Origin: Lineus longissimus
Lineage: Eukaryota; Nemertea; Pilidiophora; Heteronemertea; Lineidae
DNA: 64,000 nt
NCBI RefSeq assembly: GCF_910592395.1
Contig: NC_088310.1
Span: 26,491,491 to 26,555,490, forward strand
Direction: 5' to 3'
Shown here: positions 10,305-64,000 of the stretch, piece by piece
How the letters are laid out: the number at the start of each line of letters is the position of its first letter
Position numbering within the stretch: position 1 is the stretch's first letter
Program-made: the position numbers and the translations under genes
Notes under the pieces: model-generated
Told to the model about the DNA's origin: nothing
What the model saw: only the letters and a program-made list of their open reading frames with translations
Databases searched by the model: none

Positions 10305-35292
<24,988 letters not shown>

Positions 35293-38649: not shown

Positions 38650-38880
38650 TTAACACCTTCAGCGCCGAACTACGTTGATCTACGTGGCCCAAATCCCCCT
38701 CTGAGCTGCTTATCAGAGTCTCATGGACTTCATGTAAGAACTACGCCATCGCCATCTTCAGGGCAAGGTAGGAACTGAAAAGGGCAAGGCAGGAACTGAA
38801 AAATCGTTTGGTCTTTTCAGTTCCTGCCGTGCCCTGAAGATGGCGGTGGCGTAGTTCTTTCATGAAGTCCATGAGACTCC
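38650..38880. mobile_element. Truncated copy of the TTAA-type inverted-repeat element
   Basis: The left end reads TTAACACCTTCAGCGCCGAA, as in the complete element at 59457-59789. Inner arms (GAGTCTCATGGACTTCATG and its complement, CTACGCCATCGCCATCTTCA) form a large hairpin. The outer right end (GGTGTTAA) is missing or diverged. Confidence 0.75.
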
Positions 38881-40005
38881 GTGTAAACATGCTTCCATAC
38901 ACTTTGGTGGCAAATAGTTGAACTGGGCTTTCTCCTTATTTTCACTTTAATTTAAAAAGCACTGATTGCAGAACCATGGCAGTTGAAATGATTACATATT
39001 ACTTGGCCTAGGGTACAGCTTTTTGAGAGAAAAAATGTGACAAGTTGATGTGGTCAAATTGGAGTCTTTGTTCAGACGTGTGCATTCAAGACAACAATGC
39101 TTCGAAAATTCTTATGATCTAGTCCTGAGGTGATGAGATCCTACCCTGGTCAAGGGCATGTGACCTCTTTCACGTGAGGAGCTCTTGGTGTACTGGGCCT
39201 TTGACTATCTTCAGGACAACTAACCCAATTGCATGTCACTTCGGTAGGAACGCTGTGCCCTCTCATTTCGATCTGAATTGTAGCGACAAATGTTCAGGGT
39301 GGCAAGCAAATATTTCATTACTAAGAAATAGACTGGTATGGAGCTCATTGCTTAGGGATGGGCTGCAAAGGGCATAAGTGTTTAGCTTTGATATGCAATA
39401 GAATTAAACGTGGTTATCACTGTAATTAGTTTGATGAATCTTGTAGCCCTGGTGGTATACTTTCTGTGGGCTGTTTTGCTGGGTAGCTTTGACTGAAAAA
39501 ATTCATACTCCTGATTTGGAATATAGATTTTTGGTAGGAGAGTAAAGCAGTTTAAAATGAGAAACGTGACCTTGTGTGAGGTCCCTTTCATTGTGGATTC
39601 AATATTCCAGATAGAATTCAGAAAACTACTTCTGGAGTTGGAAGTTGATTGGTCTTGTCTTGGGATGAAGGGATTCATATTGATGGGACATTTGGGACAC
39701 CCTGTATTCTTTGTCTCTGTGCACTGATGGCATAATAGTTCTGGCTTGACCAGCATTTCATCGGAATCTCTCCCATACCATATTGTACCATTTCTCCACA
39801 GTGCTGCCACTCTGAACAGTTGAAGCCGAGCCACTTTATTAAGCTGTTGGTGTAATAAATGTATGGTATACTGCCTTTCTTGTCTGTATGCTAATTGTGG
39901 TAATAATAAATCTGACATAGCTGGATACATGATACTTGGATTGTTCATTGCTAGACTTGGGAGTTCATGTTTCAAATACATGAAAGAGACCTCGAAGATT
40001 ACAGT

Positions 40006-53531: not shown

Positions 53532-58056
<4,525 letters not shown>

Positions 58057-59309
58057 GAGAAAACATATGAATAGAACTTCTTTTTGGAAACTTTTCTGAG
58101 ACAATTGAAAATGTTTCAGAATGTGGAGTCAAATAAATCATTGAGTTATTGTTTTACAGAAAAAATCAGTTTGTTTGTTTGTTTATTCATTAATGATGTG
58201 TTGTTGAAATTCATTGGCACAACTAATTGGATCAATTATCACTGTCACAGACAGCAAAGGTGCGCCGAAAGGCTCAGTTATTAAGATAGCTTACAATGGT
58301 AACATTCCTCAGCTTTTGGGCAGAGGGCTGATCCAGACACGCAATGCAATTCTGACAGAAAAAGCACACAAGAAGATATATTTTTCATCATAGCTTTATT
58401 TCACAAAATTACACCAATCATTTACATGTAGGTCTGGTACCATATACGGTGACCTTCACTATTCATGAACAGGACAAATCTCGAAAGTGGAGGGCGCAGT
58501 GTACCAAGAATACAACGGTGCCAAATTTGTATGAATCATTGTCACTATTTCAGTCACCATCTTGCAAAACATTTGACCCTTCTGCTGTTAACCGTAATGA
58601 ATCTGAATATTTTCTGAATTACCTATATCACGATTTCTACTCTAAAGGACCAATAAAACTGTAAAAAATAACTTACAAATGGATGATTTGGAAAAAATTG
58701 ATTGGGACCTATTTTGTAAAGCCTCTTGTCAAATGATCAGGTGGTTTTTAGCTACATAATCATCAAACTTGGGGAACAGAAGATTGAATGTTTTAAACAG
58801 CTTTGAAATTTGGCTGATCACAACTCTTAACTTGATCACAAATCCAGGAAGACACAATTCAACTATTTTTATTTATGAATACATGAACTCTTGAACAAAA
58901 AGCACATTGACAACAAAACCATCTAGTGGAAGATACGGGCAGATCATAGAACCTCAAATACAAGAAATACAGAAAAATCCAATTATCTTGATAGGTTTTG
59001 AACGTTATCCTCTGCCAGTTGAGCTATACCACAAAATACACTAGTTTTTACATCAATTGGTCGAATTCGAGGCATCTAGATTCTGCGATGGCTCTCAAAT
59101 GTCGAGAACTGCTCAAGTGTCGAGCAGACAATTTGTCACAAACGCAAGTTTGAATTTAGGTCAAGTTCCATTTGGATTCGAGAGACAAGTGAAGGAGGCA
59201 GAACACAAAGGCAGTATATGAAAGAATACATGACACACTTTGTGTCTCTTGGATAAATGAAAATACTTGAGTCAAGTCTCTGGCATATGCCTTATGCACC
59301 TCAGTGTGG
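58057..59309. other. 3' UTRs of DMAC2 (plus) and of the hnRNP-derived/chimeric gene (minus)
   Basis: No coding exon is recognised. A minus-strand AATAAA (plus TTTATT) near 58394 suits the end of the minus-strand transcript. Confidence 0.4.
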
Positions 59310-60221
59310 TCAGTTTTGGTACTGCTGGTATTGTTGATACTGTTGATAGCCTTGCTGATAGTTGTAGTTTTGATTCGAACCAGTACCCTGAAACAAACAA
59401 TAAACAGTACCGTTAGTTACTTTAATACTACCACGCTTCATATTTTCTTACAGATTAACACCTTCAGCGCCGAACCACGTAGATCTATGTGGCCCAAATC
59501 CCCCCTCCCCTTGGAGCTGGTTATCGGAGTCTCATGGACTTCATGAAAGAACTACGCCATCGCCATCTTCTGGGCAAGGGAGGAACTGGAGTCTCATGGA
59601 CTTCACGAAAGAACTACGCCATCGCCATCTTCAGGGCAAGGGAGGAACTGAAAAGACTTCAGTGCCTACCTTCCCCTGAAGATGGCGATGGTGTAGTTCT
59701 TTCATGAAGTCCATGAGACTCCGATAACCAGCTCAAAGAATGGTGATTTGGGCCACGTCGATCTACGTGGTTCGGCGCTGAAGGTGTTAATGAAATTTTC
59801 TAAGATGACAGATAAGGTTCGACTTCCAGTGAATTTGCCTGACATTTGTAATTCTAACTCGGCACTAGTTTCTTCCATACAAAATTGAAAGAGGCAGTCA
59901 ATACAATGTAGGTTGTTTCCACCAGCATAGGTCACATTTAGGTCAACACTTACGGCATTATAACCTTCCCAGTTGCCATAATTGTACTGTTGTGAGTCGC
60001 CACCATTGGCGGATCCATCATGAGCGCCACCACGCCCTCTCTTGCGCGACGAACTTACATCATCGTCAGCCCTGGAAAAAAAGACCGCAGATTGAGAAAC
60101 CTATCGTAACATACAATAAACAACGTGCCCCTACTTCAAGAGTCCAATTTCATGAATTATCTGTCTACAGGGCCAAATAAATAATGTGGGATGAAAACCT
60201 ACCCTCTCTTCCTCCCGGTAT
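59310..60221 (-). pseudogene. 3' fragment of an hnRNP-like RNA-binding protein gene
   Basis: Exons 59387-59310 and 60071-59954, plus the 3' part of an exon ending at 60203, belong to an hnRNP-like gene whose 5' part is missing here. The fragment ends at the duplication breakpoint. The same exons are captured by the chimera. The parent family is inferred from composition only; no RRM is inside the window. Confidence 0.6.
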
Positions 60222-61936
60222 GTTGTTGTCCACCAAGCGTCCCCATAAACGCCGACAGATTATCCATGTTCACTTTACTCTCAACTGGTTTCGATTCCTC
60301 CTTTTGATGGTGCATCTGTTGTACTGACATACTAGGTGTTTCGTGAACGTGGTGCGAGTGTGCGGACGCTCCTGCAGATTGTAACTGTGATCCAGTGTTA
60401 GCTATCACAGGTCTCTGTGGCGTGTCTTGACTTGACGTATATGTGTTTGTGGTCTGTAATGACTGGACTGGGGGCGATGACTGTTGGCGAGGTTCAGGGA
60501 CAGATTCAGGGATTGCAGCTTCCTCTATCTGCAAGACAAACCACTATTTCATCAAACATTTACTCATTGATTGCTACATCAGAAATTCAACATTCAGGCA
60601 CATCTCTAAGAGAGAAAAAATCCTCTCGACCGAAATTTCTGTGACATATGATAGATTATACTCAAAATAAGTTTCACACTTTGTTTATTTTTAGCTTTTT
60701 AACACAATTTCAGTGCAGATTTTCACCAGGTTTTACTTTCGTGAAAAGCTCAAATTGGTGCGTGGTCTACTCTAATGCAGTTCAAGAAATCTTACCAATG
60801 GCAAACCAAGACCAGCCCTGGCCCAATTAACGGTAGAAAGCACCGTCCTCAATGTTTCTGCAACAGGGGATATAACATTTGGAGCAGGGAAAATCCCAGT
60901 TCTGCATGATGGGCACTGGTATCCTGCCGGGGCAGTGTTGCCAGGTAGTTGTCTGGCATAGGCATTCAAACAAACCAAATGGAACACATCTGTAAAGAGA
61001 ATCAGGAATCATATAGAAGTGCTGTGATAGATGACTTATTGCTGATAATGAATGACTGTGAGGATGCTTCTAGACACAAGAGACAACGATTGATTCTCAC
61101 TTATACGTGGAGATTACATCTTTAACACCGTGTTCTTCAGTTGAGTAGACTTACCATAACATAATAAACGAACACATTCACTTTGTTCTTCATTGTCAAG
61201 TCTTCCACTGCAAAGTTGACACACAGGTTTATAATCACTGTCTTGCAACCATCTCAAATAGGACTGGACGATGCACTGGAAAAAAGGAATGGCTTTTCAT
61301 ATTATACACAAGTGCATTAGCTTGGTTCATGTGCGAGCCACAGACAACACAACCATGACTTTAATTGACAACAAACCAGCAGCGAACAAGACTAAGAGTA
61401 AGACTGCATGGATCAAACAGATAATGTACTTTTCTACCCCGTGCCAGGTTTGTTTCGGCTCTGAACAGCCACCACTTGACTCTGCACTTGACTAGGACTA
61501 ACATATACGAAGACACGTTATCGTCCACACCCATGAAATCACGTGGGGATGTCGCGTGGTGATTTCCAACTTGTATGTCAAAACAACAAACAACTATCAC
61601 TCAACTCTTCACCAGTACTAGGCATACACTAACGACATTAGATTGTTTACAAGTCGAACATAACAAGCCAATCGTTTCCTCCAACTGCCATGATGGCAGT
61701 CCAGAGCTAGCTTTGCTTAGTCATCACATCATCGATATACTTGTTATTTGTATGTCGGCCTGTGCACAGACAGTGCATTTCGATGTATGTCAAACATGAT
61801 GAATAGACAGGATCAGTTCAAAGTAAAAGTTTACCTTCGGATGGTTTGCAACCAAGCAACGTTCACAAACATTCACACGATGTTCAAAACAAAAGAGATG
61901 CGTCACTTTCTTTTTGGGGCATTTACACAGCCCCAT
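59310..61936 (-). CDS. Chimeric gene: ZFPL1 exons 1-4 fused in frame to hnRNP-like C-terminal exons
   Basis: Six exons in phase: 61936-61835, 61275-61155, 60989-60796, 60528-60203, 60071-59954 and 59387-59310, encoding 312 residues. The first four duplicate ZFPL1 through the linker. After GTLGGQQ (codon near 60222) ZFPL1 sequence stops and HTGRKRG continues to a donor GG|GTAGGT. The next exon supplies one base and then [34 protein letters not shown]; the last encodes [20 protein letters not shown] and stops. The tail is Gly/Tyr/Gln/Asn-rich with a basic RKRGRGG, as in hnRNP low-complexity tails (hnRNP R/Q-like at best guess). The ZFPL1 membrane anchor (exon 6) is absent, so Golgi anchoring is not expected. 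Two changes mark the copy: KVTN to KVTH and CEHC to CERC. Expression is unknown. Confidence 0.75.
59457..59789. mobile_element. Inverted-repeat element with TTAA ends (piggyBac-like MITE)
   Basis: A 333-bp palindromic element in the last intron of the chimeric gene. The ends are TTAACACCTTCAGCGCCGAA and the exact complement, with TTAA at both borders as in piggyBac insertions. Long arms (GGAGTCTCATGGACTTCATG, CTACGCCATCGCCATCTTC) would fold back, and the inner unit is partly repeated near 59588-59650. No transposase is encoded. A truncated relative is at 38650. Confidence 0.85.
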
Positions 61937-62015
61937 ATTATTTAGTTTTGGTAAAAATCGGCAATTTGAAGCGAGAAACAATTCCAAACTTGGCAAAAAT
62001 TCTTCTGCCACGTAA
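61937..62015. promoter_or_regulatory. Compact bidirectional promoter, right copy
   Basis: The 79-bp gap between the chimeric gene ATG (61936) and the second DMAC2 ATG (62016) repeats the left copy almost unchanged, so both duplicated genes retained their promoter. Confidence 0.55.
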
Positions 62016-64000
62016 ATGGCCTTCACCTCTGTGACCTTTCTGCGCCGGCGAGACTGCTCTCGCAACTTCGAGATCCCAAAAAGGAGTGTAATTTGATATA
62101 AACTGAGCAGTTAATTCTGTATAATTTTAATTTCTTAATTGTTACATCGCTTTGCTTTAAAATGTTTTTTACGTCCATATTTGCTTATTTCTCTTTTCAT
62201 TGTTCAAAACATAAGCGACATTCAAGAAAAGATGTTGAAAAATGTGTTTCAGGTGCCGTCAAACTTCTCTTTTTCTTACTTTCCTGTTCATCAATTTCTT
62301 AACTTTACACATTAAATCTTTGTATCAGAAGTATTTCTGAAATTTGACTCCAACTATCTAACCAAGTTTAAATTCAGAAACCCATGACCATTGACAACTT
62401 TAGTGAGATAACTTATCTTAGGCTACATACATTACAAGGCCGAAGGCATATAAAGATGTTTATTTCTGATTTTACAGAGACCACTCTTGAAGCATGCGTG
62501 GTCCAAATGCAGCTCTGGGGGAATATGTCAGCAGCAGTTGCGATATTTTAGGTTTTCTGAAGAAGATGAAGATGATACATCACCTTTGGATCCAATGGTC
62601 CCACAGCGTAGTAGCCTTGGGAGACACAGGGATTTCATCACCAAGCTGCAGACAAGATTTGACTTTGAACCAGAGACAATAAGAAATTGGGCCCGGAACA
62701 AGAAACAACAGCTGCTTGTTGTTGATCAAAGGTAAGCTTTACATGTAAATGTTGGAAAGCTAGCCTTTCCATTGTGTTCTTTTATAGATTCATTGATTGA
62801 TTGATTGTTTTCTTGTATTATGAGACTTGAGAGTCAACCCAGATTGATTGAGAATTTTTTTTTCAGATATAATTCCAAGCGCTTGCAATTACTTGGCCCT
62901 GAACTGGCTGCAGCCCACTTTGTATGTCCTCGGGGTGGAACAGTCAAGTTTGAAGGAAACGACCGATGGTTTACTAAAGATCCAAAGGATGGCTTAGTGC
63001 CATTCTTGCCAAACACAAAAACACCCGGAATTCACGTAGAAGCTATTGACTTATCAGGCGTTCACATAGTTTTTGAAGGATTTGATAATTTATGTAAGTA
63101 ATTTCTGAATTATACACTTATGCTCAAATTAGAATAGAGACTAGAAATCCCTGGGTGGAGTTCATCACCATGTCTTTGACCGAATGGTATTAAAGCTGCC
63201 CTCAGGCATAAAGTTGGCCATTTTTATTCATATTGGAAGAGAGAAAATAATGTATTTTCTAACTTGACTTCTTTTCCTTTTCAGTGCGACTCAAACGCAT
63301 CAAATATTTAAGTCTCATTGGCTGCCTTTTTGTTGACGATTGGTGCTTATCAAGATTGCACGTATTGAAGGAATCACTTCTACATCTCGACATTAGTGCA
63401 TGCCCTAACATAACAGAGAGGGGCATTGCTACACTGCATCATTTAACGTAAGTAATTTCAATAAATGATATATCTCAGAAAGGCAGGACGAGTCTCTAGA
63501 AAAGAGAATAAGATACAGCAAACAAGCACAGAAGAATAAAGCGTCTAATTATATCAATCATTCAATCAAATTGTTATTTCTATGATGCAACGTTTCAGGC
63601 AAGACTCCTGTTCAAATGCGTGCTCCCATCAGTAGTAGTAATACGATTCTAATGCTTGTCATTCTTCAAATTTCAGAAACCTTCGAAAGTTGAATGTAAC
63701 AGATATGCCAAACGTAGCTTATAAACAATTAGTGTGCTCTCAACTCGAGGAAGAAATGCCAAACTTGTTCATCAGTGGTGTGGATTATAGTCCAGAACAG
63801 TCAGATCGAGAGTTAGAGGAGGCTGAAAAGATTGAAAAAGCCAGAAGAGAGTGGCAGAAAGTTACTGACTTTGATCCGGGATACTTAGGAGAACATTTAG
63901 GAGGAGTGAAAAAGTTTCAGAAATTCTTGTCACTATTACCTGAGACAAGTAGAGGAGGTATATTTGATGGTTGGTTCACTCCCAAGTTGAAACACAAGGA
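62016..64000 (+). CDS. DMAC2: DMAC2/ATP5SL-like, right copy, cut by window end
   Basis: Exons 62016-62087, 62478-62731, 62867-63093, 63285-63447 and 63677 to beyond 64000 match the left copy exactly in boundaries and phase. Substitutions include LKNA to LKHA, LSLSGC to LSLIGC, CPNVTER to CPNITER, NITDM to NVTDM and HLAGV to HLGGV. No stop or frameshift is seen, so it looks intact up to the edge. About six codons of the frame remain outside. Confidence 0.9.

Follow-up and report, generated by a model that had tools for sequence, protein, structure and literature searches.

The window analysed here is a stretch of 64,000 nucleotides from the nemertean Lineus longissimus (contig NC_088310.1, positions 26,491,491 to 26,555,490), and it contains a fusion gene that joins the 5' part of ZFPL1, the gene of a cis-Golgi zinc-finger/RING-variant protein, to the 3' end of a neighbour identified as PRPF39, the gene of a protein associated with the U1 small nuclear ribonucleoprotein (U1 snRNP). 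The order of the genes after duplication is ZFPL1, DMAC2-like copy 1, the fusion, DMAC2-like copy 2 and PRPF39. The intact ZFPL1 gene lies at 53532..55979 on the minus strand and encodes 350 amino acids with a C-terminal segment that resembles a membrane anchor, the fusion gene lies at 59310..61936 on the same strand, and the native PRPF39 gene lies just outside the window.

When the window and 29.5 kb of its flank were compared with themselves, a single long direct repeat with one head-to-tail join was found, in which 54254-60222 matches 60222-66177 with 98.5% identity over 5,972 aligned columns. Copy 1 (54254..60221) contains the part of ZFPL1 that reaches from within exon 4 into the upstream region, a DMAC2-like gene and the 3' end of PRPF39, and copy 2 begins at 60222, runs to the edge of the window at 64000 and ends outside it at 66177 (C3:26557667). 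The duplicated unit is the 5' half of ZFPL1, the complete DMAC2-like gene and the 3' end of PRPF39, and both parents of the fusion and the duplicated middle gene are all still complete. A repeat of 98.5% identity with one precise join rules chance far out. A 48-bp satellite array was the only further direct repeat in 293 kb that reached 800 bp and 85% identity. Exon matches in the 391-Mb assembly point to a single PRPF39 locus and two ZFPL1 loci, and all 5 exon matches to a PRPF39 query fell at one place.

The two copies differ unevenly, with 72 substitutions over the 4,188 bases of 54254-58441 and a single one in the next 1,781, between 58442 and the join, so that divergence drops abruptly at 58441-58442. 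This step may have been produced by gene conversion in the final stretch or by an exchange between two diverged haplotypes, and each fits equally.

The fusion gene at the duplication join

The junction lies at 60221..60222, where, on the minus strand, exon 4 of ZFPL1 (GGA CAA CAA C) passes into a PRPF39 exon (AT ACC GGG). At this point ZFPL1 reads GGA CAA CAA CCG, PRPF39 reads CAG CAT CAT ACC and the fusion reads GGA CAA CAA CAT ACC, and 1 bp is common to both parents. A microhomology of 7 bp, suspected from a match that reached 60228, was rejected because base 60223 is already different. A first-pass annotation of the window had placed the end of homology of a second ZFPL1 copy at 60222 in exon 4 and had proposed an in-frame chimera at a tandem-duplication junction; the self-alignment starts at exactly that base and the open reading frame runs through it for 312 codons.

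The six coding exons of the fusion (61936-61835, 61275-61155, 60989-60796, 60528-60203, 60071-59954 and 59387-59310) combine the 5' end of one gene with the 3' end of its same-strand neighbour in one open frame of 312 amino acids. The ZFPL1-derived part (60222..61936) encodes residues 1-241 with both Cys/His-rich modules, and the PRPF39-derived part (59310..60221) supplies the last 70 residues, the stop codon and native splice sites. The donor of the hybrid exon at 60203/60202 (AGG/gtaggt) leaves 2 bases over, the exons 60071-59954 and 59387-59310 have AG acceptors and the former a GT donor, and the frame has no internal stop before the TGA at 59312-59310. The exon phase of 2, the two fitting downstream exons and the proper stop were all as first annotated, and the first coordinate given there, 59310, was exact. 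When two same-strand coding exons join, an in-frame result alone is an outcome expected one time in three.

Over the tail the fusion and the native PRPF39 copy have no differences in 217 exon bases, 215 of which are coding. Each splice site in the fusion comes from one or the other parent, and for this reason the fusion is probably transcribed and spliced. Since the stop codon sits in the last exon, nonsense-mediated decay would not be expected. A PRPF39 intron also holds a palindromic element resembling a miniature inverted-repeat transposable element (59454-59791), which occurs again at 38650-38881 and has dozens of matches in the genome.

Parents and product of the fusion

Past 66177, the exons on the minus strand code for HAT repeats (HAT_PRP39_C, E 1.6e-70), and a deposited PRPF39-like protein of Lineus longissimus, P0121, which has 885 residues, is identical to the fusion tail over its last 70. 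By these matches the 3' partner is PRPF39, a HAT-repeat splicing factor of the U1 snRNP, and the fusion uses its last three exons. The partner had earlier been described as an hnRNP-like exon, an identity that was rejected once the native gene outside the window had been modelled: its product has PRPF39 HAT repeats, and no RRM was matched in it. In Pfam, P0121 matched six families at E <= 0.001 (two PRP39 HAT families, Suf, TPR_14, a Syf1-type HAT family and a sub-cut-off NRDE-2), and no RRM, KH or other RNA-binding domain matched it at that threshold. Compared with the solved PRPF39 structure (6g70), the native protein matches up to residue 827 of 885. A basic and then Tyr-rich tail is common to many of 20 proteins among the 120 PRPF39 proteins listed, and the tail sequence itself was matched in 2 of the 120, that of the worm itself included (BLASTP, E <= 0.01). 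With so few matches, the PRPF39 tail is poorly conserved.

For ZFPL1 the comparison set was the 120 homologues listed out of 888 hits in a search with the whole fusion protein. All 15 Cys/His positions that are conserved in at least 119 of the 120 are kept in the fusion. In Pfam the fusion matched SLX1_C alone at E <= 0.001, over residues 53-105, and HAT repeats were not found in it at this threshold. The C-terminal membrane anchor is gone, as had been annotated: the top 19-residue hydropathy is 1.28 in the fusion versus 3.25 in intact ZFPL1. Instead the fusion has gained a basic, Tyr/Gln-rich tail with a bipartite-like motif, RKR-x9-RKR. From these features the product would be soluble, and it may be nuclear or form condensates, as the first-pass annotation had suggested. 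A membrane-like C-terminal segment is absent (hydropathy below 1.6) and other tails are present in 7 of the 120 homologues, and the fusion tail gave one 17-residue match among the 120, at E 0.35 (BLASTP).

The fusion differs from intact ZFPL1 by two amino-acid changes, N13H and H26R, which both fall within residues 4-35, the N-terminal Cys/His cluster. Of the 120 homologues, 117 have N at residue 13 and none has H there, and 90 have H at residue 26 and none has R; intact ZFPL1 has the commonest residue at both positions. The zinc-finger motif of ZFPL1 has been reported to bind GM130 (PMC4021871), and in our reading this motif may be the N-terminal cluster. In short, the fusion shares with ZFPL1 the N-terminal 241 residues and the strongly conserved Cys/His but has two zinc-finger substitutions and no anchor, and it shares with PRPF39 the last 70 residues exactly but has none of the HAT repeats.

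Origin and fate of the fusion gene

A probable explanation is that a 5.97-kb head-to-tail duplication arose from one break inside exon 4 of ZFPL1 and another inside the third-last exon of PRPF39, and that the ends were joined through the 1 bp of shared sequence by end joining or template switching. This would have created a third gene at the junction, consisting of the duplicated upstream region and first exons of ZFPL1 followed by the last exons and 3' untranslated region of PRPF39, and its product would be a soluble protein in which the ZFPL1 zinc modules precede a basic, Tyr/Gln-rich tail resembling a nuclear signal. We regard the fusion as a young and near-neutral by-product of the tandem duplication, possibly still polymorphic, rather than an established gene that has taken on a new role, and we give this whole explanation a probability of about 0.72. 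The changes N13H and H26R in the zinc finger are a weak hint of relaxed constraint.

In a variant of this explanation, which we entertain tentatively, the copies were different alleles from the outset: an exchange between diverged homologous chromosomes made the duplication, and the fusion would be very recent. The contrast between 72 substitutions before the step and 1 after it fits such a patchy allelic difference, but gene conversion between the copies gives the same pattern, and N13H on a working ZFPL1 allele would be unusual, as it occurs in none of the 120 homologues.

Several observations weigh against a near-neutral by-product and favour a different fate, namely an established gene that is expressed and selected, with a soluble or nuclear ZFPL1 zinc module that acts, for example, as a GM130 decoy or as a protein linked to the U1 snRNP. 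The ZFPL1 exons are less substituted than noncoding DNA, with 5 of 724 bases changed versus 49 of 2,459 in the remaining, noncoding sequence of the diverged part (Fisher p 0.014). The 241 codons of the ZFPL1 part have 2 amino-acid and 3 silent changes, that is, an amino-acid divergence (dN) of 0.0036 and a silent divergence (dS) of 0.019, and the dN/dS of 0.19 points to some constraint, although silent changes, taken by themselves, are not in significant excess (binomial 0.078) and the signal of constraint may predate the duplication. The strongly conserved Cys/His positions are all intact. Moreover, of the first 139 sites, 72 are conserved in at least 117 of the 120 homologues, and with half of these sites so conserved, a single hit on one of them in two changes does not exceed what chance would give. 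The complete open reading frame, the native splice sites and the bipartite-like basic motif also suit an established gene, and raised expression was reported for 24 of 76 Drosophila yakuba chimeras formed by tandem duplication (PMC5460883). Against it, both amino-acid changes sit in the N-terminal cluster, and the zinc-finger motif is reported to bind GM130 (PMC4021871); the tail has no HAT repeats, the match of native PRPF39 to 6g70 ending at residue 827. The fusion protein was also absent from the listed matches of two protein searches, the whole-fusion list of which likewise lacks the ZFPL1 of the worm itself. On balance we consider an established gene unlikely.

Slightly less likely still is that two haplotypes were placed end to end in the assembly, so that neither the duplication nor the fusion exists. 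The 72 substitutions in 4,188 bases (1.7%) could equal the heterozygosity of an outbred marine animal, and 5 haplotypic duplications were taken out of the draft during curation (PMC8593623). However, the published assembly, which has 109 contigs, was made with hifiasm and purge_dups from HiFi reads of 12-20 kb DNA fragments (PMC8593623), and reads of that length would span the join together with the whole, or the greater part, of the 11.9-kb pair. A join with 1 bp in common is unlike an assembler overlap. False duplications described in other assemblies had gaps between the copies in most cases (PMC9516828), whereas the 293 kb contain no N at all, and hence no gap between the copies, and no other large non-satellite repeat. 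Half read depth, discordant reads and one-copy k-mers are the other marks of such false duplications (PMC9516828). The sequenced worm very probably does carry the duplication, on one haplotype or both. Least likely of all, and in our view very improbable, is that an expressed new gene delivers the Golgi-matrix zinc-finger/RING-variant module to the nucleus by means of a tail from a U1 snRNP factor, and that N13H and H26R have remodelled the zinc finger to suit another partner.

In Drosophila yakuba, chimeric genes have been described at the joins of tandem duplications (PMC5460883), and the worm fusion is a further, clear case of this known route of gene birth. Compared with the cases described there, the route is the same, and the genes and the phylum are others, the breaks lie inside two coding exons, and the fusion is known from its sequence alone. 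No report of ZFPL1 joined to PRPF39 came up in the part of the literature reached by a search on gene names, which is a weak statement. No fusion was found in other species or as a deposited protein among the 120 listed of the 888 hits, the best of which had 80% identity, in a list that also lacks the intact ZFPL1 of this worm. A search for the tail among proteins of similar length gave 296 candidates and none at E <= 0.001, which says little about the worm itself. What this locus offers is a chimeric gene resolved to the base at or near its birth, outside the usual model animals, whose parents, middle gene, join and earliest amino-acid changes are all legible in the sequence; if the gene is expressed, the fate of a new fusion could be traced from its origin.

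The DMAC2-like genes and other features of the region

The gene carried whole in the duplicated unit is of the ATP synthase subunit s type, and its product matches PDB 3dze, which is of this type, at E 2.8e-22; we take DMAC2 to be the name for such a gene. Its product had no Pfam match at E <= 0.001. Copy 1 lies at 56272..58056 on the plus strand, with an intact model of 334 amino acids in which the first short exon is guessed, and copy 2, also intact with 334 amino acids, runs on the plus strand from 62232 to the window edge at 64000 and ends past it at 64016. The pair differs by 6 amino-acid and 12 silent changes (dN 0.0076, dS 0.059).

In each copy the DMAC2-like gene stands head to head with ZFPL1 or the fusion, the start codons being 292 bases apart in copy 1 (55979-56272) and 295 in copy 2 (61936-62232). 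Given this layout and the short gap, a shared promoter was probably duplicated, and the 295 bases at 61937..62231, from the ATG of the fusion to that of DMAC2-like copy 2, are the candidate; that the sequence upstream of ZFPL1 was duplicated along with the second copy is borne out by the alignment.

The last intron of the intact ZFPL1 gene contains a 45-base direct repeat (53899-53986, 96% identical). The satellite array of 48-base units lies outside the window at C3:26581193-26582785, and within the window there is a tandem array at 32671-33228 with self-matches about every 20 bases.
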